From IMG/VR virus record IMGVR_UViG_3300032360_001532, positions 1-22,566 of that record: 22,566 nt of DNA. One strand, written 5' to 3'. The notes below the pieces were generated by a model. The model ran no database searches, was not told where the DNA came from, and saw nothing but the letters and a program-made list of their open reading frames with translations. Of the stretch, positions 1 through 16,225 are shown piece after piece (within the stretch, counting starts at the first letter, position 1; each line of letters begins with the position of its first letter). The position numbers were made by a program, and so were the translations under genes. The DNA is from a virus.

Positions 1-44
1 TGGAGCGCTGACCGTATCCGCGCGTCGGGGCGAGAGTCAAGCAT
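1..44 (-). CDS. Possible 5' end of a gene downstream of terL (partial)
   Basis: On the minus strand an ATG at 44-42 overlaps the terL stop TGA (46-44) by one base, giving the TGATG arrangement typical of translationally coupled phage genes. The frame stays open to the window edge and reads MLDSRPDARIRSAL. Only 14 codons are visible, so neither function nor family can be judged. A small terminase subunit or another packaging gene would be a natural neighbour, but that is a guess. No clear Shine-Dalgarno sequence precedes the ATG, which fits coupling to terL translation or a chance ATG. Confidence 0.3.
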   Translation of the reverse strand, partial: MLDSRPDARIRSAL

Positions 45-1345
45 CAGACCACAATTTGTACCCGGCTTCGCTTTCCGTAGCCGAGACCGGCGGCCTCCGT
101 GAAGCATCCAGCGGTGGCATCGACCTGATCGTCGTGCCATTTTGACTCTGGGAAGGATGACATCTCGTCTAGGAAATCCGAAATCCATGGCCCCCGAACA
201 AGGCGGACGTTGGAATTGGCGACCGCTGCGGCGAACGGCTTGGCCCGAGTGATTTTGTCGCCGGTGGATCTGATTCCGATGAAATCGCATCCGGGTAGGA
301 CGTAACGGGCGTACTGATCAACGAGGTTCTTTCCGCTGCTGCCCGGTTCTTGTTCCATCCTGATGGAAACGTGAGGACCGTCTATCTGGGCGGTCTCCGC
401 TATCAGACGCTCCACTTTGTCGCCTTTCCCGCGGATGCGCTGTATGTCGATGAGATAGAACACGCCCTGATCGAACACCCCGAGAGTGCCGACGGTGTAG
501 TCGGGGTCGGGGTTGACATGAGATGGTTCGGTGGAGGCCAGATCCCAGAACCGAATATATTTAGGTTGTTTGAAGTCTGGCAGGTCCGAGGGTTCGATGA
601 CGACAAACGCCTCGCGGTCGAACATGCTCCCGGTCGTTGCCGCCCACCAATCGCCGTTCTCCAGTCGCTGACGCTCCACTGGGTCGATTTCTTGGAGTGC
701 CCGCCGGTAGGAGTCTGGGTCGATGCCGGGGTTGTCGTCCAAGAAACTTGGGACAAAGATTCTGCCGTTCTCTTTGCCTTCTACGATGAACCGCTGTCTG
801 ACCCAATTTGGTGCTGGGTTGGATGCTGTCCGCATGCGAAGTGGAACCTTGGAGAGAGGGCCAGCGTTGGGACGACGCAAACGAGAGAATAGGTATCGAT
901 AGTCAAATTCACGAATTTCAGTTACCTCATCCATGCCAATGAATTGGAACTCAGAAGACTTATAGCGGAGATAGTCGTTCTGATTGTTGAGGTATCCGAA
1001 TGTTATTCTTGCGCCCGATGGAAATGTTGCAACATAGGTGGCGCCATTCCAATGGATGTCGTCGTATTCTTTTACCCACGCTAGGAAACGATCCATTAGC
1101 GCGCCCGGCAAAGCAAGGTCAGCGTATGTGCGTCGGAAAAGGATTGCGGAATAGCCACCGACATCAACGAATTGGAGGGCAGCCATGAGGAGAGCGGATG
1201 ATTTACCGCCACCGGCGGCGCCTCCGAAGAGCGCTTCTAGTCCTTGTGTGCGGAGAAATGTCTTTTGTGTGAGAGATGGCGCTTCAGGACAGAATAATGG
1301 CGCCTTTGGCTGGAGGAACTCATAGATGTCGGACCAATCTTTCAT
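44..1345 (-). CDS. terL: Phage terminase, large subunit (ATPase/nuclease)
   Basis: This is the packaging motor that pumps viral DNA into the prohead and cuts the concatemer. The 433-residue length is normal for the family. The N-terminal ATPase domain has a Walker A loop GGAAGGGKSS (residues 41-50), a Walker B strand FQFIGMDE (133-140) with the catalytic Glu at 140, and a TASNP coupling motif (173-177). The C-terminal RNase H-like nuclease has the expected acidic residues: D268 in RFWDLA, E331 in MEQEPGSSGK, and D405/D406/D409 in HDDQVDA. All key residues are present, so it should be active. It is transcribed away from the portal and the other head genes, which is unusual because terL normally precedes portal on the same strand. 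The ATG at 1345 has no obvious Shine-Dalgarno. I see no small-subunit gene beside it. Confidence 0.95.
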   Translation of the reverse strand: MKDWSDIYEFLQPKAPLFCPEAPSLTQKTFLRTQGLEALFGGAAGGGKSSALLMAALQFVDVGGYSAILFRRTYADLALPGALMDRFLAWVKEYDDIHWNGATYVATFPSGARITFGYLNNQNDYLRYKSSEFQFIGMDEVTEIREFDYRYLFSRLRRPNAGPLSKVPLRMRTASNPAPNWVRQRFIVEGKENGRIFVPSFLDDNPGIDPDSYRRALQEIDPVERQRLENGDWWAATTGSMFDREAFVVIEPSDLPDFKQPKYIRFWDLASTEPSHVNPDPDYTVGTLGVFDQGVFYLIDIQRIRGKGDKVERLIAETAQIDGPHVSIRMEQEPGSSGKNLVDQYARYVLPGCDFIGIRSTGDKITRAKPFAAAVANSNVRLVRGPWISDFLDEMSSFPESKWHDDQVDATAGCFTEAAGLGYGKRSRVQIVV

Positions 1346-1560: not shown

Positions 1561-3795
1561 ATGGCGTGGAATATTGGCAATAAAGCGATAGGGGCTACTG
1601 AGGGTAAGGTTATCTCAGTTGGTGCCCCCATAGCATATAACGCTGGCCTAGTCGGCAAGCCTTATACAGACGGCTGGGATATTGAACGTGCATACCGTGA
1701 AGGTCTAGCCAAGGTTACATGGGTTTATCGTGCTATCGATGTAATTGCGAGTAATCAGGCCCGTCTTCCTATGACGTTTCTACAGAATAACTCTCCGTTT
1801 GGTGAGATTGTTCCAAAGGAAGATCACAATAAAGAAATAGCGACTCTCTTAAATCAGCAATCCAACATGGGCGAAAGTGCTTTTGCTTTCCGTTACAGGG
1901 TTTCCGCGCAGTTGCTCATGAGCACTAGGGGTGTTTTCATTGAGATCATTCGTGGCCGAGGGGGGATGCCGACAGCGTTACACATCCTTCCCCCACAAAG
2001 CACTGCTCCGATTCCTGATCAGAAGAAGTTTGTCGCTGCCTTTGAGGTTGAACTTCCCAATGGGAAGAAGCAGCGTTTGAATCCAAAGAACGTTATGTGG
2101 ATTCGGCGTCCACATCCGTTGGATCCTTATTTGTCAATGACTCCGATGGAGTCAGCAGGCGTTGCGATTGAAACCGAGACGCTAGCGAAACTCTATAACA
2201 GGAACTTTTTGCTCAATGACGGTCGTCCCGGCGGTCTGTTGGTTCTCAGAGGACAGATCGATGACGACGACAAACAGGAGTTGCAGGCCCGGTTCCGAGG
2301 GAATCTTGCCCGCAGTGGGGGTATCGGGGTTATCTCCTCAGATGACGGTGCCGATTTCGTAGACACGGCGGCCAGTCCACGCGACGCCGCCTACGGTGAG
2401 TTGAGAAGTTTGACGAAGGAAGAGATCTTGGCCTCATTCGGTGTTCCTGAATCGGTCATCGGAAATGCTTCGGGGCGAACATTCTCAAATGCGGCAGAAG
2501 AGGGAAGAGTGTTTTGGTCTGAAACGATGGCGCCACATTTGGAGTTGCTGTCTCGCGGGTTTGACGTATTGGATGATAACTACTATGTAACATTTGATAC
2601 CTCTACGGTTCCTGTGCTGGTTTTGAGCAAGCAGGAGCGGGAACGCTCCCTCTTGACAGAGGTTCAGCAGGGTTTGATCACTCCGAACGAGTATCGGGAA
2701 AGTACCGGTCGGGAGAAGGTTGACGCCTACCTGTCAGATTCGATGTTGGCCAATCCGAACCTTGCGCCTATCGGCAATACTGAAGAGGCAATGCCGAAGG
2801 AAGAAGCAATGCCGGAGGCACCGGGCATGCCGGGGGCCATGGGTGGTGGTGAACCGGTTCCACCGGGCGCAGCGGCTCCGGGCGGCGAACCGCCGCTTCC
2901 GCCGGGGGCACCACCGATACCGCCTCCGGAAGCAGGCGTAGCACCGGAACTCCCTCCGGGCGAGTTCCCAATGATACCTAAAGATCTTCAGGATGCGTTG
3001 GACGAATTCGATGTCAAGCATTTCAGTCTCAATGGCGAGTGGGAAAGCAAGGCGTTTCAGGACATCGACCGTTGGGAAGCGATCTTCAAGCGCTCTTTGG
3101 AGCGTTACTTTGAACGACAGGAGAGGGTTGTAACCGAAAAGGTGTCTGGGGCTAAAGCAAAGCGGCTTTTGTCTAGTGACGAATTGACGGTGGAGAGCAT
3201 CTTTGATCAAGAGGTTTGGAACAAACAACTCCGTGATGATCTAGTACCGCTGGTGGAGGGCGCAATGATTGAGGCTGCGGGGACAGCCTTGAGTGCTTCG
3301 GATGAGCAATTGGACACCAAAGATGACGATGTTCAGAAATATATCGAAAGTCAAATGGTTAGGGCGGAGCATGTTAACGAAACCACCAAAAAGGAACTCG
3401 CTGGTGCGATTCTTTTAGCGACCCTCCTTTTGGGGGACGACGGAGACGATGCCTCTTTGGCAGCGAAGGTGGCGATTCTTGGGACGGCTGTTGCTGCCGT
3501 ATTTGCGGCACTTCTAACCAAGCGTCTAGTGAATATCGCTGAGGTTGAAAGCACTGGGGCTTATAACGCAGGCATGTACCACGGTGGGACGCGTGCCGGA
3601 GTGCAGACCAAAACGTGGATCACGCGCAAGGATTCAAAGGTTCGTGCTGCACACGCCGCCTTGGAGGGCAAGACCGTTGGGATTAAAGAGGGATTTAAGG
3701 CCGGAAATGTAGTCCTACGTTTTCCGGGTGATCCGTTGGCGCCACCGGAGATGGTAATCAATTGTCGATGCTTGCTTAAGTTTGGCAAGTCGTAG
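1561..3795 (+). CDS. Portal protein fused to Mu gpF-like minor head domain
   Basis: A 744-residue two-part head protein. Residues about 45-395 look like a HK97-family portal, the dodecameric ring at the capsid vertex through which DNA passes: VTWVYRAIDVIASNQARLP near the start, a central stem and clip region, and LLTEVQQGLITPNEYRE (364-380) at the end of the portal part. Residues 411-472 are a Met/Pro/Gly-rich linker. The C-terminal part (about 480-744) ends with a Phage_Mu_F (PF04233)-type signature: DSKVRAAHAALEGK (691-704), FPGDP (721-725) and INCRC (733-737). That domain normally belongs to a separate minor head protein made just after portal; here it is one polypeptide. A hydrophobic stretch (613-655) precedes it. 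There is no clear Shine-Dalgarno before the ATG. The portal and MuF assignments are confident; the exact domain border is approximate. Confidence 0.9.
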   Translation: MAWNIGNKAIGATEGKVISVGAPIAYNAGLVGKPYTDGWDIERAYREGLAKVTWVYRAIDVIASNQARLPMTFLQNNSPFGEIVPKEDHNKEIATLLNQQSNMGESAFAFRYRVSAQLLMSTRGVFIEIIRGRGGMPTALHILPPQSTAPIPDQKKFVAAFEVELPNGKKQRLNPKNVMWIRRPHPLDPYLSMTPMESAGVAIETETLAKLYNRNFLLNDGRPGGLLVLRGQIDDDDKQELQARFRGNLARSGGIGVISSDDGADFVDTAASPRDAAYGELRSLTKEEILASFGVPESVIGNASGRTFSNAAEEGRVFWSETMAPHLELLSRGFDVLDDNYYVTFDTSTVPVLVLSKQERERSLLTEVQQGLITPNEYRESTGREKVDAYLSDSMLANPNLAPIGNTEEAMPKEEAMPEAPGMPGAMGGGEPVPPGAAAPGGEPPLPPGAPPIPPPEAGVAPELPPGEFPMIPKDLQDALDEFDVKHFSLNGEWESKAFQDIDRWEAIFKRSLERYFERQERVVTEKVSGAKAKRLLSSDELTVESIFDQEVWNKQLRDDLVPLVEGAMIEAAGTALSASDEQLDTKDDDVQKYIESQMVRAEHVNETTKKELAGAILLATLLLGDDGDDASLAAKVAILGTAVAAVFAALLTKRLVNIAEVESTGAYNAGMYHGGTRAGVQTKTWITRKDSKVRAAHAALEGKTVGIKEGFKAGNVVLRFPGDPLAPPEMVINCRCLLKFGKS

Positions 3796-3879: not shown

Positions 3880-3885
3880 TTGCCT

Positions 3886-5148
3886 ATGCCAACTATGACT
3901 CTTTCAGAAGAAGAAACTGACATTCAATTTAAGGCCCGTGCTGGTCAGGTCAATATTGATCAGGCAAAGGGCATTGTTGAGTGCTTTGTCGCTGCCATTG
4001 GGAATAAAGATTCCGTAGGCGACATTATTATTCCGGGTGCTTTTGATGGTTCCCTCAAACGACGGAAGCCACGAGTGGTGTGGGGACACAACTGGAATGA
4101 GCCGATTGGGAAAGTTCTAGATATTTTTGAAGTTCCTCCCAAGGACCGGCGACTACCCCAGAAGATGTTTGCTGCTGGCGTCGGCGGCCTATTTGCGAAG
4201 GTTCAGTTCAATTTGAATGCCGAGCGGGGCAAGGAAGCGTTTGCGAATGTTGCCTTTTTCGGTGAGGAACAGGAGTGGAGCATTGGTTACAAGACCATTG
4301 ATGCTGATTACGACCACACTCATCAGGCGAACATCCTGAAAGAAGTAGAACTTTATGAAGTTTCGCCAGTCCTGCATGGTGCCAACCAGTTGACAGGGAC
4401 CATGTCTGTGAAGGACAACGAAGCATCCGAGTGCGGTAGGGACGGAGAGTTGTGCGCTGTTAAAGATCTAACTGGTGATCTTGAGCCTCAGGAGTCAGCA
4501 GCGACTTTGCTAGCAGAAGCGGTCAAGGTTGCTTTTGATCAAGATATTGAGTTGGTGGACTTTGACGACAATCGGGCCATTGTTTCTAAGGGTGATGAGG
4601 CGTGGGTTGTTGGTTACCATTTTGACGAGACCAATTCTGAGTTTCTATTTGCCCAACCTAAGCAGGTGGTTTTGGAAACTGTTGTGCGAGTGGTCGGAGA
4701 AGAAGCCAAGACCGGTTGTGGCTGTGGTGGAACTTGCGGTGGAGAGAAGACCTTAGAGGAGGATATTGAAACGAAGGTCGGTCGGAAGATTTCCTCTCGC
4801 AACGTCACAAAAATCGCTCAGGTTGTTGAAGTTCTTCAGAGCATCATCAACGAGGTAATGCCTTCTGAGGGTCCGTTGGAGCGCAAGGATCCAGAGGAGA
4901 AGGCTTTTATCCCCGGCAAGTATTCCGAGTTTTCTGATTCGATTTCGTTTGAATGCACTTCGGAGGATGAAGTTGTCGATGTCGTTGAGGCATTGTCCGG
5001 CGTTGGGGTTCCGGTGAGGTTCCCCACTCCCGAGTTGTTTGCTGCCGGAGTTAAGACTTTGGATGTCTTGATGCCGGTAGATAATCAAGAAGAATTTGTG
5101 AATGCAATGGGCAAGGCTTTGTCCAACGTCGAATCTCTTAAGGAGTAG
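3886..5148 (+). CDS. HK97-type prohead protease with long C-terminal extension
   Basis: A serine protease (family S78/U35) that cleaves head proteins inside the immature capsid so the shell can mature and DNA can enter. The catalytic domain is roughly residues 10-170 of 420. The expected catalytic His is H68 in WGHNWNEPIG and the Ser is S132 in EWSIGYKT, followed by EVSPVLHGANQLTG (158-171), the usual end of the domain. The start is the ATG at 3886, because AAGGA lies six bases upstream. About 250 extra residues follow. They include a Cys-rich CGCGGTC (278-284), a segment GRKISSRNVTKI resembling the 'GRxLSxxN' tail helix seen in many of these proteases, and an acidic C-terminal domain with no recognised family. 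The next gene starts two bases after the stop with its AAGGAG inside this one, so expression is coupled. No capsid gene follows, contrary to the usual order. Confidence 0.9.
   Translation: MPTMTLSEEETDIQFKARAGQVNIDQAKGIVECFVAAIGNKDSVGDIIIPGAFDGSLKRRKPRVVWGHNWNEPIGKVLDIFEVPPKDRRLPQKMFAAGVGGLFAKVQFNLNAERGKEAFANVAFFGEEQEWSIGYKTIDADYDHTHQANILKEVELYEVSPVLHGANQLTGTMSVKDNEASECGRDGELCAVKDLTGDLEPQESAATLLAEAVKVAFDQDIELVDFDDNRAIVSKGDEAWVVGYHFDETNSEFLFAQPKQVVLETVVRVVGEEAKTGCGCGGTCGGEKTLEEDIETKVGRKISSRNVTKIAQVVEVLQSIINEVMPSEGPLERKDPEEKAFIPGKYSEFSDSISFECTSEDEVVDVVEALSGVGVPVRFPTPELFAAGVKTLDVLMPVDNQEEFVNAMGKALSNVESLKE
5140..5145 (+). promoter_or_regulatory. Strong ribosome-binding site for the acidic head protein
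   Basis: AAGGAG ends five bases before the ATG at 5151 and lies within the last codons of the protease gene. This is the best Shine-Dalgarno match in the window and suggests the acidic protein is made in quantity. Confidence 0.7.
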
Positions 5149-5150
5149 AA

Positions 5151-7268
5151 ATGTCAGAAGAGATCAATACCGAAGAATTAGAGACGGTCGTAGAGGAATC
5201 TCTGACTGAAGAGAAGTCTCTGGAAGACCAGATCGCCGCCTTGGAGGAGGTCGCGTCTCAAATTGAGACCGAAGTCGAAGAAAAGGCCGTTGAAGATGAG
5301 ACCGAGGTCAAGTCAGAGGACGATGGTGAGGCCGCCGAAGAAGGCGCTGAAGAGGATGTTGAGGTTGAGGCCGAAGACGAGACTGAAGAAAAGGGTCTTG
5401 GTGAGGCTGATCATTCCGAAGAGGATTGCAAAGACGCGAGTTGCAAGTGGCACGGTGTTGATGCCAAAGAGGCGGAAGAGTCTGATGGCGAGGAAAAGGC
5501 CCACCCAGTAGCGACTGGTTATCCATATGACGCTGTTGTGTTACAGCCGGGTGATCCCGAGTTTGATGAAGAAGAGGATGAGAAGACTCAGGTGCCAAAG
5601 AAGCGACAGATTGTTGTTGTCGAAATGGACCCCGAAGAGGTTACTGATGACATGAAGGCTTATGTCGTTGAGGTTGATGACGATGAAAACGACGAGGAAG
5701 TGCCGACCTTAGATGACGAGGAGAAGCCGTATCATGAAGGAGACGAAAAGCGCAGGGTGCGTGTTCCGATGCCGGACGACGATGAGGCTCTCCCCGGACC
5801 GCCGCCCGCTCCCACAGCCATGGCCCCTCCCCCACCCGATGCCCCTCCCTCACCCGCACCCCCTGCCGCGCCCCCCCGTCCAGCCGTTCCTCCCGCAGCC
5901 GCGGCACCGGACGGTCCACCGCAGGCGAATCCACGGTTAGCACGGTTGCTGGAGCAGGCCCGGAATGGCCCCTCGCCAGATGGGCCTTCTTTTGGCCCGC
6001 CGGATGGTCCGCCCCCCGGTCCGCCGGACGATGATGAGGACGAGGCACCTCGTAGGCGTTTCAGGCCAGCGACGATGGTTGGCAAGAAAGAAGATGAGCC
6101 TGCGTCTGTGAAGGATCTCTTGGATAAAGATGCCTTGATTAGCAGGATGCAACGTCTTGGGTTGACTAAGCGAGAAGTTAGTGAACTTGGAGATGACGAC
6201 TTCCTGTGTGCCATTGAGCGCAAGGTTCTTTCAGGCGATGTCTGCAACTTCTGCCGCGGTGGATGCGCTAGCGAAAAGGGTCTTCCCGGCCTGCTTGAGA
6301 TTGAGGTCATGGCGGAGAAAGAGTTTGAAGGTCATGTGGTCGATTCTGGCTACGCACCCAAGGATGACATCTTTGTTCTTGATTTGAAGACCGATCGTGG
6401 ACCCATTGAGACCTATTACTCAGGTGCGGGTGCAACGTTGGGTTGGATTGCCCTTGCCGAGAGCATCGAAGAAAAGTCCGCCGATAACGAAGGGGTACAC
6501 ATTGTCTCGTTTGCCGAGGCGGAGATGATCGCTCTTCAACACTGCAAGGGCGAGTCGCTTGGCGTCGATGCCGATCTCTTCCAAGGCGAAGATGCCTACG
6601 TCGTTGAGATCAATGGCAAGGATGGCAAGTCGTATGACGCCTACGTTTCAGTAGACGGCAACTTCCTTGGCACAGACATGATCGAACTGACCGATGAAGA
6701 GGAGGAGGAGATCAAGGAACTGATGCTTGAAAAGGCAGCCCTTGAAGCCGAGGTCAGGATCAAGCGTGTCTACACGACTGAAAAGGCCACGGAGTTGGTT
6801 GATCAGGGTATGGCCCTCACTGGCGGAAGGTTCCCGATCGTCACCCACGAAGATTTGGAGAATGCCATTTTGGCTGCCGGTCGGGTGAAGGACGACAACG
6901 AGGTCAGGGAGCATATTGCTAAGCGCGCTGAGGAAATGGAAAAGACCGACCTTCTACCAGAAGATTGGGATGGCAAGAGTGCCGTTGAAGAAGCGGAGTT
7001 TGTTGCTTCTTTGATGGAACTTCAGATGCTTGAAGCAGAATTTCCAGCCGATGAGAAGCGTGTCTACACCGACGAGACTCGCCAAGAGTATGCCGAGCGT
7101 GGAGTGGCCATGGAAGATGGGTCATATCCGATTCGTGACGTTGGTGATTTGAAGAACGCCATTCAAGCATTCGGTCGGTCAAAAAATCCCGACGCCACTA
7201 AGAGGCATATAAAGAAGCGCGCAAGGGCTTTGGGCGCAACAGACCTGCTTCCAGACAATTGGGAGTGA
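5151..7268 (+). CDS. Acidic, proline-rich head-region protein with PepSY-like and tandem DUF6582-like domains
   Basis: A 705-residue modular protein of unknown role. Residues 1-200 are extremely Glu/Asp-rich and include C93, C98 and H101 in a CKDASCKWH motif. Residues 215-294 are a Pro/Ala/Gly-rich linker. A Cys cluster CNFCRGGC (C365, C368, C372) opens the next part. A segment around 378-433 and a better one at 451-508 (SFAEAEMIALQHCKG ... YDAYVSVDGNFLG) have the helix-then-strands look of PepSY domains. The C-terminus has two copies of a roughly 72-residue domain (535-606, 634-705) with the pattern 'RVYT...G.A...G.[FY]PI...DL.NAI.A.GR...HI.[KR]RA...TDLLP[DE][ND]W', which I associate with DUF6582-like domains in phage head genes. 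It follows the protease directly, so a scaffold, decoration or internal head role is plausible. No transmembrane segment is seen. Confidence 0.75.
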   Translation: MSEEINTEELETVVEESLTEEKSLEDQIAALEEVASQIETEVEEKAVEDETEVKSEDDGEAAEEGAEEDVEVEAEDETEEKGLGEADHSEEDCKDASCKWHGVDAKEAEESDGEEKAHPVATGYPYDAVVLQPGDPEFDEEEDEKTQVPKKRQIVVVEMDPEEVTDDMKAYVVEVDDDENDEEVPTLDDEEKPYHEGDEKRRVRVPMPDDDEALPGPPPAPTAMAPPPPDAPPSPAPPAAPPRPAVPPAAAAPDGPPQANPRLARLLEQARNGPSPDGPSFGPPDGPPPGPPDDDEDEAPRRRFRPATMVGKKEDEPASVKDLLDKDALISRMQRLGLTKREVSELGDDDFLCAIERKVLSGDVCNFCRGGCASEKGLPGLLEIEVMAEKEFEGHVVDSGYAPKDDIFVLDLKTDRGPIETYYSGAGATLGWIALAESIEEKSADNEGVHIVSFAEAEMIALQHCKGESLGVDADLFQGEDAYVVEINGKDGKSYDAYVSVDGNFLGTDMIELTDEEEEEIKELMLEKAALEAEVRIKRVYTTEKATELVDQGMALTGGRFPIVTHEDLENAILAAGRVKDDNEVREHIAKRAEEMEKTDLLPEDWDGKSAVEEAEFVASLMELQMLEAEFPADEKRVYTDETRQEYAERGVAMEDGSYPIRDVGDLKNAIQAFGRSKNPDATKRHIKKRARALGATDLLPDNWE
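6753..6968 (+). repeat. DUF6582-like domain, copy 1
   Basis: Residues 535-606 of the acidic protein. Key landmarks are KRVYTTEK, GGRFPIVTHEDLENAI, AAGR and TDLLPEDW. It is the more diverged of the two copies: the basic HIKKRAR helix of copy 2 reads HIAKRAE here. Confidence 0.7.
7050..7265 (+). repeat. DUF6582-like domain, copy 2
   Basis: Residues 634-705, ending the acidic protein. Landmarks are KRVYTDET, DGSYPIRDVGDLKNAI, FGRSKNP, KRHIKKRARALG and TDLLPDNW. It is closer to the form I know from other phage head proteins. A 27-residue helix-rich spacer separates the copies. Confidence 0.7.
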
Positions 7269-7278
7269 GGGATTGGTG

Positions 7279-7686
7279 GTGTCCGGCGAGCAGGCTAAGG
7301 CGATAGTACGGGTTCTTCCTGACGGCACGACGAGAAATATGGGCGGCACTGTTCGTCCTTTGCGTCGTGTCGTGCCGCATGACGCCCCTGATACGGGGAA
7401 GCCCCAGATCTGTGCGCGGCAGCGCGCTCAGATTGTCGCTTACAAATTGATCGCTCGTACTGCTGGTCAATGGGAAAGGGACGCCAACAACGAAGGCGCT
7501 CACTACATTGACAAGCATCCCTTTAGAGATGAGGGGATTGTATGTGCGAATTGTGTGTTCTATAGGGGACCAAGGGCGTGTGAAATCGTCAAGGGTGAAA
7601 TAGACCCTATGGGAATATGCAAGTTATGGGTTATACCCGACATGTATTTGAAATCCGACAACGGAGGTAATGAATCCAATGCGTAA
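7279..7686 (+). CDS. Small four-cysteine protein with HiPIP-like motif
   Basis: About 135 residues. The C-terminal third contains C-A-N-C-V-F-Y (C89, C92), then C101 and C114 in MGICKLW. The order 'CANCxF ... C ... G ... CxxW' with spacing C-x2-C-x8-C-x12-C closely resembles high-potential iron-sulfur proteins (HiPIP), which bind one 4Fe-4S cluster. The loop between the second and third Cys is shorter than in classical HiPIPs, so a zinc site is the alternative. No signal peptide is visible, although true HiPIPs are usually exported. The start is ambiguous among TTG 7273, GTG 7276 and GTG 7279. I chose GTG 7279 because AGGGA ends six bases before it. It starts just after the acidic protein's stop and overlaps the next small gene by eight bases, so it belongs to the head operon. 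Its role in a phage is unknown. Confidence 0.7.
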   Translation: MSGEQAKAIVRVLPDGTTRNMGGTVRPLRRVVPHDAPDTGKPQICARQRAQIVAYKLIARTAGQWERDANNEGAHYIDKHPFRDEGIVCANCVFYRGPRACEIVKGEIDPMGICKLWVIPDMYLKSDNGGNESNA

Positions 7687-7818: not shown

Positions 7819-10800
7819 ATGCTTGATGCTGATCTTGAGGTCAAACTACCTCAAGACTTAATTGACATAATCCCACAGGAACGGATCACCGGAGATATTC
7901 TCCGTGGTCACGGTCCGCGTCGTGGGAATCTTGAGGCACTCCTTAAATATTGGCGTCCCATAATGCGGAAGCCGGGGGGCTTTCGGCGCTGCATCGTCAT
8001 TCTGGCCAACCATCCAGAGTTGTATCCATTACAACGAATTTGTGCGTGGTTGCATCACGAAACTACCGGCAAGTGGCCGAATGAGGGTAATCACCATGGC
8101 CGTCGTGCTGGCCGCGTGGCAGGCCGGGTGGCTCGTCGGGCCATTCCGGGCAAGCGCAAGCGTCGTAGAAAGAGTGAGCCTGATGGCGGGGTTGAGATCG
8201 CTGGATGGCGACTCTATCGACGGCTCTCGCGTATGTCGGGAGGAATGAGCACTCGTCCCATTGGAAAAGATCTAAATGCTGTTGAATATAAGGCGGCGCG
8301 CTTCAAGCAGGGACATCGGTCGATTCCTATGCCCGGATCCTTTGATTGGGATGAGGAATTCGACTGGGACAGGGAATACGAAGAAAAAGTTGGTTTGGTC
8401 AACAGTCATGGTCGGATGGGCAGAATGCTCCAGAGCATGGCCTCGTTCTTCATCCCCGGCGATATGGGCAAATTCCGTAGTCCTATTCGTTCTGCCATTT
8501 ATGGTTCGCTAACTCCGGGCGGAGGCGGTGCGGGCGGTCGTGGAGGAATCGGAGGGGGCGGTGGTCTACCAAGTATTGGTGGTGCTGCGTTGCGCTGTCC
8601 GTCAGGCTATGAAAACGGGGGCCGTTTCGCAGAACAGAATCTGAGGAACTGTGGTGGCGTTGTCTTTGATGTCCCCGGCAGGGGTCCGGGTGCTGTATCT
8701 GCTGCCGACAGAAGCAAGTTGACTCGTAGATTTGAGGGCACTACGGCGGCCGACTATCCCGATGTGGTTCGGGATGTTGTAGCAAAAAAGCCGAAGGGCG
8801 ATCCGTTTGCCGTAGTTCGTGAAGCGGCGATGCCGGGGAAGACAAAGCCGAACATTGCCCGCCGGGATTCGGCGGTTGCGGATGTGGTCGAATACGCAAA
8901 AAAGAATAGAAATACAACGCGTGTGATTCGACGGGATGGTGTGGTCTTTGAACCGGCTGCCACCACGGAGGATCTGTTGTCGATGGAAAATCACGACAAC
9001 ATGCGAGAAGCCGTGTATGTCACTTCCAGAATTAAGAGCGGAGGCATCGCCGGTGATGAGATCCGGCTACTGACCAAGGGTGCCGCATCGATTGAGTATG
9101 TGTATCCCGAAGGATCAGTGCGGGTTCTGCGTAAGGGACCGTTCAGCGAAGCGCAAGCAGCAAAAATGAGAACTCGCTGGGCAGGCATCCAGCGTGATCC
9201 AGAAGTTCTGATCAACCCATATGTTGCTATTGAGAAGTTGGTCAAAGCGTTTCCGAAGAATCTGTCAGTTAAACCGACATTCAAGGAGATTCCAGACGCA
9301 GAGCAGCGGATCGTTGTGTACACCGTCGGCGGTGATCGCACGATGGTCCCCAAGTGGGTGTTTACTTTGTACCTGTCGGAGAGGGCGCCTCGCCGGGTGA
9401 GCGGTAAGCCCGCGTATTATCTTGCTCCGCCGACAGCGCGTTACGGAATGGAGAAGGCGCTTTACTGGCGACCAGAGCGTGACGAGTACCCGGCTCTGTT
9501 CGCTCAGCAGAAGGCACTTGCGTTGCGGGCCGATCCGATTCCGGGGCGTAAAAGAAACGTGTCGGACATTCGGATTAGTCAAACATCTGGGCTGAACAAA
9601 GACTCACTAATTGACATCAAGGCTGCCCGCTTTGACGCATCTGCGGATGACATTTTCATGGCGTTCAAAGTGTTTGGCCGACGGGGTGGTATCGGTGGTC
9701 GCCTTGGGGCTGCGGCTCGCCGGGTACCCAAGGTGGTTCCGTACAATCCTGACGCCAGAGATGCCGATAATGACGGTTTGGTTCAGGAGGGCACCATCTG
9801 GGAGCGGCCTTCTGGTGCTCTATTCCGTGGCCTCGCCCGTGGGGCACGGAAATTGGCTGGGTCCGTTCAGTTGGTGGATGCCAACGGTAAGAAGATCGAT
9901 TACAAACCGGGTGATCATGACAGGTCGCCTTTGCGCCGACCGGCAGGCCGATTCCGTGGGGCAATTGGTCGGGGAGCGGGGGCTGTAGAGAGGGATCAGC
10001 GAGGCAGGATTCGTAGGCGTGACCGTGAGTTGGGCGCTGAGGCTGACTTCACTGAACTTGAGCGTCGTCGCTTGTTGCGTCGGGCGAACCGTCGTCGGGA
10101 CAGGTTGGTGCAAGAGATCGATCGCATTCAGGGTCGTGAAGGTGGACCTCAGCAGCGTCGTGAGGGCCGTGCCGACCGTCGTGATCGTCGGGCGGAACGC
10201 TTGGAGAGGCTTGGCGAGCGTGATATCGGAAGGGCAGACGAGTTGGCTGATCTGCGCCGACGACGCGAAGACTTTGATGCCGAGCGGCGTGAACTAGAAG
10301 AGCGACAACGACAGGAACGTGAGGAAATGGAGGGTCGTGACCCACGCGGTGAGCGGGGTCGTGAGCGGCGTGATCGACGGGTGGTGCGACGCGATGAACG
10401 TCGTCGTCGTATTCAGGAGGGCGCTGAGCGTATTAGGGAAGGTCAGGCGGAGAGGATCCGTGAGCGTGATCGCGAGATGGGCGCTGAAGTTGATTTCGAC
10501 GCAGAGAATGCTCGTCGTGACGCTAGGCGGGAACGCCGTGCGGCTAGGGGCGATCGCAGGGAAGAGCGGCGTAACGATCGTGCCCAACGGGTTCAGGAAC
10601 GGATGGCTCGGATAGAGGAACGTCAACAAGAGCGAATTCGTGAGCGTGATAGGGCAGAGGGCGCAGAGATTGACTGGGGGCGAGACGAAGAACGGATAGC
10701 GCAAGCGCGCGCCTTGGGCCAACGGATTCGTGAGATTTTCGGTCGCCGTGGCGAACAGGCGGTTAGGGACGACGACGAGGCAAGGATTCAAGAGGTAACT

Positions 10801-13800
10801 GGTAAATCACGGGAGGAGATAATCAAGGAAGTTGCAGAGGGTCTCGTTCCTGAGGTTTTGAAGAGAACTGACGAGGACGATGCCGCTATCGGTCAGGCGC
10901 TGATAAATCTCATTCCAGAAGAAGAAAGTTTGCCGGACGATCGTTCCCGCCGGAACGTCAGGAATCGATTCCGGCATCGGCTACCAGAGCGTGCGTTTTG
11001 GCGTGAAGACGGTTGGGATCCCGGCGGCGATCGCGATCGTGATGCGGACATTGCGGAACATGAGGAGCGTTTCGGTCGGTACTACGACGACGATGGCAAT
11101 ATAAACATTCGTGGCCGGGTGGTCAACGAGCAGTTGCGCGCTGAGCGCGACGGGAAGCCGATGGTCACGGAACGGCGGCCCGACGACCGATCTCCTCCCC
11201 GCACTCCTCCGGGGGAGGGTCGCACCCCTAACCAGTATGGCCCGGTACCCGAGTTTGAAGAGGGTAGAGATTGGGGTGAACAGGCGGAGGAATGGACCAA
11301 CCAGCAGCGGTTGGCGTGGCTTGATGCTGACGGCCTTGGGCCTCCACCTCATCATGAGGTTCCGTCGCATCGTCGGGCAGTAGAGCGTGCGCTATTTGAT
11401 GATTTGGTTTCCCATCAAGAAGGCGATGTTCGACTCAAGAATGGCAGCGGATACCCGCTTGATCGATGGTCTGAACTGGAATTGAGGGTTGCCGAACGCC
11501 GGATGGCGCAGGATCGTCACATCGAACGGATGGGTGGCGAACCGTTGATGCGAGAGATTCAGGCAGAGTTGGGGAGGAGGCGTACCGCTCCCGGCGACTT
11601 GCCTCCCGGTGAGAACCGAGATATTCACGAGGTGATGGCGGATGCGTTTCCTGTCCGACCTGCCGACATGGGCGTTAGAGACATAGAACTGCAACTGCGG
11701 GAGATTGAAGATGCTTGGCCCGATCCTTTGGATCGTCCGTTCTTGCAAGAACGTCGGTTTGCAGAGTTGGAGGAAGAACTGGATGCTCTAGGCATCGACC
11801 GTGACGAGGCACGCGTGTGGGGGACTGCGGGTCTTGTGCCAAGGCCGCATGAAGAGGGTATCGATGTGGCAGAACTTGAGGCCGAGCGGGCAGAGGGAGA
11901 GCGAGTCAGGGAAGAAATATCAGCGATTCTGAACGCCAATCAAGCAGAGGCTCAACGGGTGATGCCCAACTTTGGCGAAATGTCAGCGATTCGTGAGTAT
12001 CTGGCTGAAATGGACTCTGATTTGTTGCAGGTATTGCGGGTTGGACTCCATAGGGACCAGTCATACATCCGGCGGCGAGAAGAAGGCGATCATATCCAAG
12101 CGCTTAGGGATCATGGGTGGCGTGATGATCTTGACGCTCTCAAACAACTGGAGGATTTGTTAAACGGAGAACTTGTCCGTCGGGGCGAGGCCCGTGAGAG
12201 GCCGCTTGGACGGACAGCGCAAGAGGTGGCTGACGCTCAGGCGATGGCTGATGAAGATTTTCCCGTGCGGGGTGCAGCGCCGCGGGAATTTGTGGGGTGG
12301 CGTAATGACCCTGACAGAGACCGGGCCGAAGGCACGCTGGCTGACGGCTCATTTGTCGCTCAGGTTAAGGATTGGAGCGATGAGGAGTTGCAGGCATGGA
12401 TAAACGCTCCAAACCATCCACCGGAATTGACGGATTTTAGTGATGCCTTTAGGAATGCTCGTGTGGCGGTTCAGGATGAACTGCTAAGCCGAGGTTTGCT
12501 AGATCTTGATCGCCCGTTGAGTCCAGACGGAGACGGCCGAACGCCGTTACCGCTAGATGGATTGATTGATCTGTTGGGCGGTGAAGGCGCTGCTGATCAG
12601 GCTCATATGGAACGAGTCGCTAAGGCGGAGCAGATTGCGGACAGGGTTTGGAACGCAGCACAGCGGTTGAGGGATGATCAGGGTCGAAACAGGATTGCCG
12701 ACCTGTTGGACGCTGCGATTGCAAACTGGGAAGATGATATGGATCGTGGTGTCAATCCGGGCTTGGAACTACGGAATCTGGCTGCCGCCGTTGACGACAT
12801 GGGTATCTTCGGTGACGATTACGACAGGGTGCTTGATTTCAATAAGAATGAAATGTTGGCTCAGTTGTTTCACGATCCGGAGATTTGGGGTGGTGATGCA
12901 CCAGTTGAAGTGTTGGCTGCCACCAACTTGGCAGACATGCTGACCGCAATAGAGAGTGCAATGAGGTTTGGAGGCGACGACGGCGAGCGGGTTCTCAATC
13001 GTCCAGAACTTTTGCATACCAGACTGAATGATGTACAGAAAGCGTTTAAAGCCGTTGAGTTACAAGACCCAATCGACTTGATTGCTGAGGCTAGAAGGGC
13101 TTGGGAGCAGGATCGTGGTGACACGGTTGCGTTGAGGCGATTGGCTAGAGCGCACTTCTACGGGCATTTACATGAAAGGGCACAGGGCCGACTTGATGGT
13201 CCCCTGCGTCAAATGGAGAGCATGTTGGGAAACCTTGGCGACATACCTCATGTTCGTGCGATTGATAACCCACCGGATGCGCCAGAACCATCGATTCCAG
13301 AAGAAGATGATGTCTTTTTGCAGGAGATAGTGCAACGAATCGTTCAGCGTCGCACGAACCTTGTTGAGAATGTTTGGCGTCGGAGGGGCCAGATGCCTCG
13401 GTTGGGTTGGGCGGCTTACGGTCTTGACATCGATGACTTGATGGGTCGATTGGGCCGTGGGGAAGCACTCTCCAAAATAGATAAGGCTGCTATTACGGAG
13501 GCGGTCGCGGAGGCTTTCTCTCTGGGTCCGCGCCGAACATGGGAGGGAAAAGACGGATACCTTTGGAGAACCGTTGGCACGGCTGGAAGGGACATACCAC
13601 CGATTAGTATTAGTGGCGATGGCAACGGATTATTCATCGATGTTGGCACCGGGGACTCTGCGATAATTCAGTTTAAGCCACCTACGGATGTTTTCGATGC
13701 GGATGGGAATCTGATGGCGAGAGCCGGTGAATGGACTCAGCCGGGTTCCAATTCTCATTGGAAGAGAAGGATTAATTTCAAGCGGGATGCTCAGGGCAAT

Positions 13801-15684
13801 GTGAAGGGGCACATAGAGAACGATCATCTTTGGATAGACACGGTTGAAAAGTATGGAGTGAAAGGCAAGGGGTTCCAAACCTTCTTTAATCACAACGCTT
13901 GGATGCACTTTCAAGCGTTGAATGTGAAGACCGTGCATCTGACTGCGGTAGATGATGGTTCCGTTGTGTGGGGGATGATGGGCTTCAGCGATCCGTGGAA
14001 GGTTGAAGCGATGATCCAGCGTTTCGGTCTGGAACTTGCCGAATATGCCGCAGGTCGTGAGTCGATCATTATGGATGATCGCATGAATTTAGAAATGGAA
14101 CGGTTGGTACAGGCTTGGGGTAGGAATCACGATTCGGTGACATTGTTGCACGGGCATGGAGTTCTCAATCGTGGCGGGAAACATCCGTGGAGAGAGATCC
14201 TGCCGTTCGGCGGCCCGCTGGAAGGCGGTGAGGGGGAGCAGGCCAACAAGTACGGAACTTGGTGGATAGATCATGCCCATTTTTCCGGTGGGAATATGGT
14301 TATTGATCCCGATCAGTCTGATCTTGGAAAACTGATTAGAAATAGTGGTCTCAGGTTGGGTCCGAACAGGGGCTTTAGGCCCCACAGGGATCCGATTGAA
14401 GAGATGAGCGATTATGAGATTCGCGAACAATTTGACGTATATGACGCGATGATAGAGGGTTTGGAAATTAACAACATGGACGTTTCGCCTGAGATGCGGG
14501 ATCGTCATAAGGCTCTTGGAGAGGCATTAGGGGTACTGGAAGTAGCGGCGGTGCCCGGTCGGGATCTTAGAGGTGGGTTACAACGTCGCGTTGATCGTGC
14601 AATCAATATGGACAATCTGATTGAACCCGGAGTCGATTCGACTCAAGATCTCGGTGGTCGTCAAGCGTTGAGGGTTGTTCCGACGCCTGCGGGCTTCACC
14701 GCTGATGACGCTATTGAGTTGATTAATCGAAGGGATAACGATGGTAATTACATAACGCCGTTGACTGATATTCCTTCTGAGTTCATAGCGGAAGCCCTGC
14801 GTGGGGCATCGTCAGAATTGAGTAGAGATCCGGATACGCGCTTCAGGCGGATAGAGGGAGACCTTGGTATTAGCGATCCAGTGCTCTACTTCTTGCGTGG
14901 TGCGGATGGAAAAAAGACGGTGCAGGGAGTGATCGTAAAGAAAGCCGACACAGGTTGGGATCGGGATGGCTTTGACTCCCAGTCCGCTGAGTTGATCGGT
15001 ATGGAACTAGCAGGGTTGATGGGCTTTGGGTGGGGAGGGACCATGGCCAACGGGTCGGATCGTATGCGTCCAGTGATTGTTGCTGAGTTGGGCGGCAACG
15101 TTGTGGACGTTGATTCGGTTATGACTGTCGCTGATTTCATTGACGAAATTAACGCTGGTGCGCGCGCTGTATCGGAGATACAAACCCCTGCGGCCGTATT
15201 GGCGAGACTGGATAACGTGTTGTTGAATTACTCATTGGGTGCCACAGATCGACACGAATGGAACTCTATGGTTCTCGGTGATGGCGAAGGCATGCTTCCG
15301 ATCGATTTCGGTAGAACGTGGTGGTCCAATAACACTGATTTTCTACGGTATTTGGGAGAAGAAATGGGTAGTGAGGATGGTGGCCATTTCGATCTTCTAG
15401 AAAACTTGAGGAACGCGATACTTGGTGGGGAATTGACAAGAGAACAGGTACAGGAGAGTCTTGAATCGTGGACATTCCGTTTGAGAGCAGCGCTTCTTCA
15501 GAATTGGGATGCGATCGTAGAAGATGCCCGGCTACTTCAGAACACTGGCGGACTTGTCCAGACTCCGGCTGATGTGATTGCGTTCGATCGGATGATGGCA
15601 AGCAACAAGGAGAAGTTGGACATTCGTATAACGCACCTTGAAGATGACATAGATGACATTGTAAGTGGCTTGATAGGACATTAG
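7819..15684 (+). CDS. Giant multidomain head-region protein (2,621 aa) with GNAT-like and kinase-like C-terminal domains
   Basis: AGGGAG four bases before the ATG supports this start. In order: a conserved-looking N-terminal domain (about 1-92) with WRPIM, PGGFRRC and ICAWLHHETTG; a basic tract (95-118); a Gly-rich linker (233-252); a two-Cys segment CPSGY...CGGVVFDVP (260-286); a mixed domain to about 600; an Excalibur-like calcium motif D648-x-D650-x-D652-G...E657; an Arg/Glu-rich coiled-coil region (about 720-960); helical repeats (about 1140-1520); more helices; a GNAT-like acetyltransferase domain (about 1930-2075); and a kinase-like domain (about 2255-2560) with K2374/K2375, E2391 or E2396, DRHEWN (2477-2482) and IDFG (2495-2498). 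I recognise no single family for the whole protein. Its place next to the head protease, and this architecture, suggest a head-packaged 'polyvalent' protein. A tape measure is less likely, because enzyme-like domains sit at the end and no long apolar repeat is present. Confidence 0.85.
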   Translation: MLDADLEVKLPQDLIDIIPQERITGDILRGHGPRRGNLEALLKYWRPIMRKPGGFRRCIVILANHPELYPLQRICAWLHHETTGKWPNEGNHHGRRAGRVAGRVARRAIPGKRKRRRKSEPDGGVEIAGWRLYRRLSRMSGGMSTRPIGKDLNAVEYKAARFKQGHRSIPMPGSFDWDEEFDWDREYEEKVGLVNSHGRMGRMLQSMASFFIPGDMGKFRSPIRSAIYGSLTPGGGGAGGRGGIGGGGGLPSIGGAALRCPSGYENGGRFAEQNLRNCGGVVFDVPGRGPGAVSAADRSKLTRRFEGTTAADYPDVVRDVVAKKPKGDPFAVVREAAMPGKTKPNIARRDSAVADVVEYAKKNRNTTRVIRRDGVVFEPAATTEDLLSMENHDNMREAVYVTSRIKSGGIAGDEIRLLTKGAASIEYVYPEGSVRVLRKGPFSEAQAAKMRTRWAGIQRDPEVLINPYVAIEKLVKAFPKNLSVKPTFKEIPDAEQRIVVYTVGGDRTMVPKWVFTLYLSERAPRRVSGKPAYYLAPPTARYGMEKALYWRPERDEYPALFAQQKALALRADPIPGRKRNVSDIRISQTSGLNKDSLIDIKAARFDASADDIFMAFKVFGRRGGIGGRLGAAARRVPKVVPYNPDARDADNDGLVQEGTIWERPSGALFRGLARGARKLAGSVQLVDANGKKIDYKPGDHDRSPLRRPAGRFRGAIGRGAGAVERDQRGRIRRRDRELGAEADFTELERRRLLRRANRRRDRLVQEIDRIQGREGGPQQRREGRADRRDRRAERLERLGERDIGRADELADLRRRREDFDAERRELEERQRQEREEMEGRDPRGERGRERRDRRVVRRDERRRRIQEGAERIREGQAERIRERDREMGAEVDFDAENARRDARRERRAARGDRREERRNDRAQRVQERMARIEERQQERIRERDRAEGAEIDWGRDEERIAQARALGQRIREIFGRRGEQAVRDDDEARIQEVTGKSREEIIKEVAEGLVPEVLKRTDEDDAAIGQALINLIPEEESLPDDRSRRNVRNRFRHRLPERAFWREDGWDPGGDRDRDADIAEHEERFGRYYDDDGNINIRGRVVNEQLRAERDGKPMVTERRPDDRSPPRTPPGEGRTPNQYGPVPEFEEGRDWGEQAEEWTNQQRLAWLDADGLGPPPHHEVPSHRRAVERALFDDLVSHQEGDVRLKNGSGYPLDRWSELELRVAERRMAQDRHIERMGGEPLMREIQAELGRRRTAPGDLPPGENRDIHEVMADAFPVRPADMGVRDIELQLREIEDAWPDPLDRPFLQERRFAELEEELDALGIDRDEARVWGTAGLVPRPHEEGIDVAELEAERAEGERVREEISAILNANQAEAQRVMPNFGEMSAIREYLAEMDSDLLQVLRVGLHRDQSYIRRREEGDHIQALRDHGWRDDLDALKQLEDLLNGELVRRGEARERPLGRTAQEVADAQAMADEDFPVRGAAPREFVGWRNDPDRDRAEGTLADGSFVAQVKDWSDEELQAWINAPNHPPELTDFSDAFRNARVAVQDELLSRGLLDLDRPLSPDGDGRTPLPLDGLIDLLGGEGAADQAHMERVAKAEQIADRVWNAAQRLRDDQGRNRIADLLDAAIANWEDDMDRGVNPGLELRNLAAAVDDMGIFGDDYDRVLDFNKNEMLAQLFHDPEIWGGDAPVEVLAATNLADMLTAIESAMRFGGDDGERVLNRPELLHTRLNDVQKAFKAVELQDPIDLIAEARRAWEQDRGDTVALRRLARAHFYGHLHERAQGRLDGPLRQMESMLGNLGDIPHVRAIDNPPDAPEPSIPEEDDVFLQEIVQRIVQRRTNLVENVWRRRGQMPRLGWAAYGLDIDDLMGRLGRGEALSKIDKAAITEAVAEAFSLGPRRTWEGKDGYLWRTVGTAGRDIPPISISGDGNGLFIDVGTGDSAIIQFKPPTDVFDADGNLMARAGEWTQPGSNSHWKRRINFKRDAQGNVKGHIENDHLWIDTVEKYGVKGKGFQTFFNHNAWMHFQALNVKTVHLTAVDDGSVVWGMMGFSDPWKVEAMIQRFGLELAEYAAGRESIIMDDRMNLEMERLVQAWGRNHDSVTLLHGHGVLNRGGKHPWREILPFGGPLEGGEGEQANKYGTWWIDHAHFSGGNMVIDPDQSDLGKLIRNSGLRLGPNRGFRPHRDPIEEMSDYEIREQFDVYDAMIEGLEINNMDVSPEMRDRHKALGEALGVLEVAAVPGRDLRGGLQRRVDRAINMDNLIEPGVDSTQDLGGRQALRVVPTPAGFTADDAIELINRRDNDGNYITPLTDIPSEFIAEALRGASSELSRDPDTRFRRIEGDLGISDPVLYFLRGADGKKTVQGVIVKKADTGWDRDGFDSQSAELIGMELAGLMGFGWGGTMANGSDRMRPVIVAELGGNVVDVDSVMTVADFIDEINAGARAVSEIQTPAAVLARLDNVLLNYSLGATDRHEWNSMVLGDGEGMLPIDFGRTWWSNNTDFLRYLGEEMGSEDGGHFDLLENLRNAILGGELTREQVQESLESWTFRLRAALLQNWDAIVEDARLLQNTGGLVQTPADVIAFDRMMASNKEKLDIRITHLEDDIDDIVSGLIGH
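9724..9936 (+). repeat. Shared module A, copy in first giant protein
   Basis: Residues 636-706, beginning VPKVVPYNPDARDADNDG and ending KIDYKPGDHDRSPLR. It contains D648, D650, D652, G653 and E657, matching the Excalibur-type DxDxDGxxxE calcium-binding pattern. The matching copy is at 16324-16551. The core GLVQEGTIWERP is identical in the two proteins, and their DNA over those 36 bases differs at four third positions only. Confidence 0.85.
10012..10050 (+). repeat. IRxRDRxxGAExD[FW] motif, copy 1
   Basis: Reads IRRRDRELGAEAD then F. It is the first of three copies of a 14-residue motif in the Arg/Glu-rich region of the first giant protein (others at 10456-10497 and 10636-10677). It falls where a long charged helix is interrupted, so it could mark a segment boundary or cleavage site. 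Confidence 0.6.
10456..10497 (+). repeat. IRxRDRxxGAExD[FW] motif, copy 2
   Basis: Reads IRERDREMGAEVDF, 149 codons after copy 1. The flanks are long Arg/Glu helices. Confidence 0.6.
10636..10677 (+). repeat. IRxRDRxxGAExD[FW] motif, copy 3
   Basis: Reads IRERDRAEGAEIDW, 60 codons after copy 2. The codons differ from copy 2 (AGGGCA for CGCGAG), so the likeness is held at protein level. Confidence 0.6.
11062..11121 (+). repeat. Shared module B, copy in first giant protein
   Basis: Residues 1082-1101, EERFGRYYDDDGNINIRGRV. It matches EEKFGKYYDGDGVLNERGKL at 17650-17709 in the second giant protein, with half the positions identical and most others conservative (R/K, V/L, I/L). Confidence 0.8.
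11239..11397 (+). repeat. Shared module C, copy in first giant protein
   Basis: Begins GPVPEFEEGRDWGEQAEEWT and ends RRAVERALF, with QQRLAWLDAD between. The second giant protein has GPSPQLEEGRDW, QQRAWLHAD and RRAVERALF at 20731-20901. A series of two-helix repeats follows in both proteins. Confidence 0.8.
13621..14055 (+). other. GNAT-like acetyltransferase domain in first giant protein
   Basis: Residues about 1935-2079. A beta-rich start is followed by the strand HLWIDTV (2003-2009), the loop-helix VKGKGFQTFFNHNAWMHFQ (2014-2032) in the place of the acetyl-CoA-binding motif A, the strand VKTVHLTA (2036-2043), and VVWGMMGF (2049-2056), resembling the 'GGYxWxxxGF' end of GNAT domains. The order of elements fits GNAT folds found in phage and toxin proteins. 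The substrate is unknown. Confidence 0.5.
14581..15500 (+). other. Kinase-like (PI3/PI4-kinase-type) domain in first giant protein
   Basis: Residues about 2255-2560. VQGVIVKKAD (2368-2377) offers the nucleotide-binding Lys (K2374 or K2375). SAELIGMELAGLMGF (2389-2403) offers the helix-C Glu (E2391 or E2396). ATDRHEWNSMVL (2475-2486) is a DRHxxN catalytic loop, and PIDFGRTW (2494-2501) a DFG metal-binding motif with D2496. DRHxxN followed by IDFG is the PI3/PI4-kinase and PIKK arrangement; HipA-like and Fam20-like kinases are alternatives. All catalytic positions appear intact. Confidence 0.55.
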
Positions 15685-15990: not shown

Positions 15991-16225
15991 CGTAAGCGAA
16001 AACACTCTGGACGATATGCGGAATTTTATTAAGACCCGCAATAACGAAACGCGTATCGGAATCGTGGAGATCGTTGCTCAGTATGTTTTGGAAGACTTCC
16101 CGCCGGAAAAGGACAAGGAAGAAGCCCTAACCCTCGCTCGTTATTACCTGTCTACGGATAAAGGTATAGAAGACTTGAAGGCGTTGTATCCGCAGGCGAT
16201 GGCATGGTTGGAGTCAGTGCGATGA
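15983..16225 (+). CDS. Hypothetical helical protein (80 aa)
   Basis: An 80-residue, probably all-helical protein: NTLDDMRNFIKTRNN, IGIVEIVAQYVLEDFPP, DKEEALTLARYYLSTD and DLKALYPQAMAWLESV look like four helices. I recognise no family. AGGG lies nine bases before the ATG at 15983, which sits inside the end of the previous gene. Its stop overlaps the next start in ATGA, so translation is coupled to the second giant protein. Together with its neighbour it forms a small two-gene cassette between the two related giant genes; a co-folding or adaptor role is possible but not shown. Confidence 0.75.
   Translation: MGNVSENTLDDMRNFIKTRNNETRIGIVEIVAQYVLEDFPPEKDKEEALTLARYYLSTDKGIEDLKALYPQAMAWLESVR

Follow-up and report, generated by a model that had tools for sequence, protein, structure and literature searches.

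A phage head operon encodes a small protein with the fold of the high-potential iron-sulfur proteins (HiPIPs), which are bacterial electron carriers. We propose, with a probability of roughly 0.6, that this product is a PioC-type [4Fe-4S] HiPIP that is made together with the head proteins and enters the prohead, most likely as a redox-active internal head protein. If this is true, hundreds of phages would link a redox protein to the machinery of head maturation, which would make it a new class of head component, and the idea of iron-carrying virions would take a concrete, testable form. A name and a fold would also be given to a domain that is common in prohead proteases but carries no annotation. 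HiPIPs, the internal proteins of T4 and the automatic annotation of HiPIP domains in phages are already known. In the literature searched (most subscription journals were outside its reach), we found no paper on phage HiPIPs, and the link between the HiPIP domain and head maturation appears to be undescribed there.

The HiPIP gene and its neighbors

The window is the whole stretch of DNA that was analyzed, all 22,566 nucleotides of IMG/VR virus record IMGVR_UViG_3300032360_001532. Its relevant features are as follows.

44-1345, minus strand: terminase large subunit (PF17289, 2.7e-12)
1561-3795, plus strand: portal protein with C-terminal MuF domain (PF04860, 1.4e-48; PF04233, 1.7e-9)
3880-5148, plus strand: prohead (S78) protease, the head maturation protease (PF04586, 1.3e-13)
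5151-7268, plus strand: acidic 705-aa protein, possible scaffold
7279-7686, plus strand: HiPIP-fold protein, 135 aa; confident domain, residues ~41 to 120
7504-7506, plus strand: codon of Tyr76, family-invariant, aligned with the conserved HiPIP Tyr
7543-7545, plus strand: Cys89, predicted cluster ligand 1
7552-7554, plus strand: Cys92, predicted cluster ligand 2
7579-7581, plus strand: Cys101, predicted cluster ligand 3
7618-7620, plus strand: Cys114, predicted cluster ligand 4, within GxCxxW
7819-15684, plus strand: 2621-aa protein directly downstream of the HiPIP gene, no Pfam match

An earlier note on this DNA had placed the gene between head genes. Upstream, this description holds, as shown by the portal-MuF and S78 protease genes; downstream, the 2621-aa neighbor has no Pfam match, so in the window head genes are shown on one side only. 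The location in a head operon is itself strengthened by the protease fusions and capsid-targeting sequences of relatives, described below. The acidic 705-aa protein shares its C-terminal domain with a HiPIP-bearing protein of phage DSL-LC01. A second giant open reading frame (ORF) of the window (16204-22566; at least 2121 aa) also lacks a Pfam match and is partly similar to the first (7819-15684; blastp, E 4e-21).

The 135-aa frame, for which alternative TTG/GTG starts lie in frame at 7273 and 7276, contains CANCVFYRGPRACEIVKGEIDPMGICKLW. The C-x2-C-x8-C-x12-C spacing, with CANCxF and GxCxxW, from which a likeness to HiPIPs had been proposed, is thus confirmed exactly; a fifth cysteine, Cys45, lies outside the motif. 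By chance, residue-shuffled ORFs would yield this spacing 0.005 times per window, and it was absent from 20,000 shuffles of ORF 7279-7686 itself.

The four cysteines are retained wherever full-length relatives were inspected. They were found in a set of 26 relatives (one with a longer last loop), in 44 sequences plus a few relatives with an x7 variant, across 41 distinct sequences (one of the 41 truncated) and in all 46 distinct sequences of the cyanophage branch described below. No homologue lacking one of the four, which the earlier note had named as grounds for rejection, was present among the full-length relatives inspected. The first cysteine was absent from every degenerate, alignment-derived search pattern, so its conservation is not an effect of selection by the search. 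In an alignment of 26 sequences, only one Tyr column and the four Cys columns are invariant. Around the last ligand, the window has GICKLW at GxCxx[WYF], and some relatives have Ala in place of Gly or of Trp. Three close pairs of sequences showed low dN/dS (dN, 0.02 to 0.06; dS, 0.29 to 0.47).

One HiPIP feature varies between branches. The Trp immediately before Cys4 of HiPIPs is well conserved but not universal (PMC7462912). This position is Ile113 in the window and mostly I, L, V or Y in the window's branch, whereas it is Trp in the cyanophage branch. The residue is frequent rather than defining, and its absence weakens the redox claim more than the claim of membership; in the window's branch, it may mean a lower potential or stability of any cluster held.

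Relationship to the HiPIP superfamily

Several comparisons place the phage family, very probably, in the HiPIP superfamily. In the profile search proposed in the earlier note, the window protein alone reached 16.9 bits against PF01355, below the Pfam gathering cut-off of 22, and three relatives (S-SRM01, L073 and LR756508) passed that cut-off. With phmmer, the best match of the window protein in the PDB was HiPIP 3h31 (E 3.5e-4). A profile of 26 members had seven PDB matches up to E 10, all of them HiPIPs (3h31, 3.3e-7; PioC, 1.3e-6; 1hlq; 1hpi; 1isu; 2hip; 1pih), and a profile of the cyanophage branch matched PioC with an E value of 2.3e-13. The NCBIfam model of the iron oxidase Iro (NF041615) matched the window protein (6e-4) and the S-SRM01 protein (3e-10), both under the model's equivalog cut-off.

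Whether the cysteines alone drive these matches was tested with a 46-column core in which the Cys columns were fixed and the other columns were shuffled. The unshuffled core found seven HiPIPs (best, 1.1e-4) with weak unrelated matches mixed in. Neither of two Cys-fixed shuffled profiles had a HiPIP match up to E 10, and an artefact of cysteine composition was rejected on this ground.

The predicted structure agrees with the profiles. AlphaFold2 modeled residues 41 to 120 of the window protein with a pLDDT of ~95, and the best seven Foldseek matches in the PDB were all HiPIPs (3h31, E 0.007 and probability 0.96; PioC, TM-score 0.67 by target length). The model of the cyanophage branch was poor (pLDDT 46), and no part of the fold claim rests on it. 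In a viral structure library, 17 phage proteins matched the AlphaFold model at E <= 0.001. Two were BFVD/UniProt entries named automatically "High potential iron-sulfur proteins family profile domain-containing protein," so the domain is already recognized by machine; others were named prohead protease, SppA, XkdF or Zeta toxin. A zinc ribbon, the fold that had been set against the HiPIP reading, was not predicted, and it had no significant match in the PDB, Foldseek or Pfam searches (one relative had a weak Zn_ribbon_5 match, E 0.14). The closeness to HiPIPs claimed from the motif is therefore backed by sequence profiles, by the Cys-fixed control and by fold comparison. We consider it probable that members of the family hold an Fe-S cluster in vivo.

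Distribution and genomic context of relatives

Among the 600 pattern matches listed in IMG/VR, at least 559 were confirmed as relatives. In 84,980 genomes of bacterial and archaeal species, a single-sequence query found no relatives, and a tighter alignment found six small contigs of metagenome-assembled genomes (MAGs; two pattern scans), most of which carry head genes; these contigs are probably phage DNA. At the sensitivity of pattern scans, the family is thus essentially viral.

A head gene was present in 111 of 120 loci. This count comes from HMMs built on head proteins that Pfam had identified in some of these very loci, and phage contigs of any kind often contain head genes. At 56 of 63 nonredundant HiPIP loci, head genes share the strand of the HiPIP gene, typically with the portal gene on one side of the HiPIP and the protease or major capsid protein (MCP) gene on the other; the commonest orders were terL-portal-HiPIP-protease-MCP (24 loci) and portal-HiPIP-protease-MCP (9 loci). 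At 38 of these 63 loci, HiPIP and protease share one open frame (31 with S78, 6 with S78 plus the major capsid protein and 1 with an S49/SppA-like protease).

Individual loci illustrate the range of arrangements. By Pfam/PHROGs, L021 encodes a portal, a HiPIP-S78 fusion (9e-40) and an HK97 capsid protein (2e-59), and L016 encodes an S78 protease with HiPIP. A single 940-aa frame (L023:4869-7691) joins HiPIP, a weak S78 match (0.022) and an HK97 capsid domain (1e-33). At L029, the HiPIP forms the C terminus of a protein read as S49-like by its SppA-type motifs and adjoins a lambda-type portal and a GpA terminase, and at L010 a 111-aa HiPIP is followed by an HK97 capsid protein. Because terminase and portal types differ among the loci, the association of HiPIP with the head has either recurred or been kept across lineages. 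PHROGs gave no usable match for the HiPIP domain of the prohead proteases. At L011 (7298-9544), the head operon encodes a fusion of an XkdF-type protease with a Zeta-toxin domain, beside a HiPIP-bearing protein.

In the flank fetched for seven loci, L037 to L041 included, head genes were absent. L037 to L041 encode standalone HiPIP-like proteins of 122 to 213 aa near genes for a DNA methyltransferase, a TauD-like dioxygenase or a ribonucleotide reductase.

Other HiPIP-like motifs were also observed. A second, longer motif, CxNC...C...GYC...C...TCxxW, occurs in L006:5080-5814 (phage DSL-LC01), MW202879, MW202701 and MW202462; it is annotated "high potential iron-sulfur protein," lies near head/packaging genes in DSL-LC01 and MW202701, has no Pfam match and looks unlike the window's family. 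A 299-aa protein (L005:9200-10099), outside any obvious head operon, ends in two tandem HiPIP-like Cys motifs. In a 484-kb phage (LR756508.1), a 131-aa HiPIP-like protein (L008:2791-3186) with a Cys2-Cys3 loop of x13 scores above the Pfam HIPIP cut-off and adjoins genes that appear RuvC-like and primase-like rather than a head operon.

Matches to the T4 capsid-targeting sequence in the cyanophage branch

A second branch of the family belongs to T4-like cyanophages, with Synechococcus phage S-SRM01 as an isolated member. These HiPIPs are 66 to 67 aa long and start with MKSFQEFLSE, MKSFQEFLFE or MKSYQEFIAE, followed by the HiPIP domain; the N terminus of T4 IPII and IPIII is MKTYQEFIAE. To be packaged into the T4 head, IPIII requires only its first ten residues, of which 4 and 7 are important for targeting and 8 and 10 for processing, and gp21 cleaves after L/I-x-E (PMC9026906). 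The corresponding capsid-targeting sequence (CTS) pattern, M-K-x-[FYLW]-x-x-[FYW]-[LIV]-x-E, was matched by 46/46 distinct cyanophage HiPIPs. Among S-SRM01 ORFs, it was expected 0.06 times and observed four times, the HiPIP being one of the four; among 4,607 ORFs of non-T4 loci, it was not found.

S-SRM01 also encodes a gp21-type S77 protease (PF03420, 8e-37). The predicted cut in its HiPIP falls after E10 and gives the neo-N terminus EEKSSKATAEYQNEPK, so that an isolate with a predicted cleavage site opens the question to mass spectrometry. The predicted mature cyanophage HiPIP is a basic protein of 57 aa (pI about 9), and in this style it resembles the T4 internal proteins, which touch DNA through lysines (PMC3012670). 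Since the cyanophage HiPIP has a packaging tag of its own, the domain there would be cargo and not a targeting device. This evidence belongs to the cyanophage branch and not to that of the window, whose protein begins with VSGEQAKAIV and shows no recognizable CTS with L/I-x-E.

Three other S-SRM01 proteins, of 102 aa (L091:26582-26890), 440 aa (L092:15428-16750; cytidylyltransferase-like) and 447 aa (L092:26324-27667), start with the CTS-like peptides MKSFKQFISE, MKNFHQFITE and MKSFSQFLEE, respectively, and are candidate internal head proteins. A 947-aa protein (L067:4690-7533) has a nucleotidyltransferase-like N terminus, a HiPIP domain and further domains behind it; I-S-E precedes the HiPIP domain exactly where the short proteins have their CTS cleavage site, and the product is possibly a packaged polyprotein.

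Proposed role and alternatives

In the model that we favor, the four invariant cysteines of a small HiPIP fold would hold one [4Fe-4S] cluster. The protein would enter the prohead through the protease/scaffold system, either separately, as in the window, or built into the prohead protease as one of its domains; in T4-like cyanophages, the N-terminal capsid-targeting peptide would carry it in and be cut off by the prohead protease. The protease/capsid fusions of one branch and, independently, the capsid-targeting peptide of the other indicate a location within the prohead, and we therefore favor an internal head protein that would bear a [4Fe-4S] cluster. Cellular HiPIPs are usually exported to the periplasm as holoproteins by the twin-arginine (Tat) system. 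By eye, no twin-arginine signal with a hydrophobic stretch was seen at the N terminus of the window or S-SRM01 protein, and the lack of a Tat signal is expected if the site of action is the prohead. The phage HiPIP is probably assembled into the prohead as internal cargo: from the sequences, we regard a location inside the prohead as likely for the family and as still more likely for the cyanophage branch. Once inside, it might protect packaged DNA during assembly or storage, or it might be ejected with the genome. That the protein stays in the mature virion and is redox-active is a more tentative proposal, somewhat short of even odds, and the protease-fused domain could be lost along with the protease on maturation. 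Equally tentative is the broader suggestion that several tailed-phage lineages pack a HiPIP in the capsid and keep it at maturity, its cluster protecting the DNA or passing into the next host.

The most serious alternative, which we judge unlikely though by no means negligible, is structural: the fold could be a docking module, stabilized by metal (Zn or Fe-S), that connects protease or scaffold to the shell and has lost electron transfer. A metal-stabilized minidomain would fit docking, as would fusions in which the protease precedes or follows the domain (S78 in either position, S49-like in front) or the major capsid protein is included, and the window's branch lacks an aromatic residue before Cys4. 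However, each cyanophage member brings its own targeting peptide and lacks a protease or shell domain, which makes the protein cargo there; moreover, the Tyr and the aromatic residue after Cys4 are retained, and the closest relative of known structure is a [4Fe-4S] protein. The sharing of one open frame by HiPIP and protease at 38 of 63 nonredundant loci could instead reflect a redox switch, by which oxidation or loss of the cluster alters the fused protease and the oxidation state of the cell times or blocks maturation. We consider this improbable, since the genes are separate at the remaining loci and the HiPIP of T4-like cyanophages is a predicted substrate of the protease rather than a domain of it.

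An auxiliary electron carrier of the host cytoplasm, placed in the head operon simply for late expression and without a link to the virion, would be in keeping with the ferredoxin, peroxiredoxin and glutaredoxin genes of S-SRM01 and with the few relatives among methyltransferase, TauD and nucleotide-reductase genes, but it leaves the protease/MCP fusions and the capsid-targeting peptides unexplained and seems very improbable. A chance pattern of cysteines without kinship to HiPIPs, to which the single-sequence Pfam score below the cut-off might point, is refuted for practical purposes by conservation in all relatives, by profile matches to HiPIPs only and by the negative controls.

Comparison with known systems

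PioC of Rhodopseudomonas palustris TIE-1 (PDB 6xyv, 7a4l and 7a58), the smallest HiPIP, resembles the phage family in the x2/x8/x12 spacing, the upstream Tyr and the GxC at the last ligand. Its [4Fe-4S] ligands are Cys22, Cys25, Cys34 and Cys47 (PMC7462912). PioC itself is cellular and is encoded in the photoferrotrophic pio operon, whereas the phage family is encoded alongside head genes, often with a capsid-targeting peptide or in fusion with prohead proteases. Classical HiPIPs (PF01355; e.g., 3h31 of Rhodothermus marinus) and Iro share the four Cys, the Tyr, the fold and the profile matches with the phage family; in comparison, the phage proteins have a shorter Cys2-Cys3 loop and another genomic setting, and the window's branch has no Trp before Cys4.

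T4 IPII and IPIII are like the cyanophage HiPIPs in their nearly identical first 10 residues, the L/I-x-E site and the basic mature part. They differ in that the cyanophage cargo is a HiPIP domain, and the window's branch has no recognizable CTS. Phage tail tips are known to contain Fe-S clusters, in the lambda gpL-type tail-tip hub (PMC10276861, citing Tam 2013). The hub resembles what is predicted here in having a four-Cys Fe-S cluster in a phage particle; it is another protein, located at the tail tip and essential for tail assembly, whereas the phage HiPIP is linked to the head.
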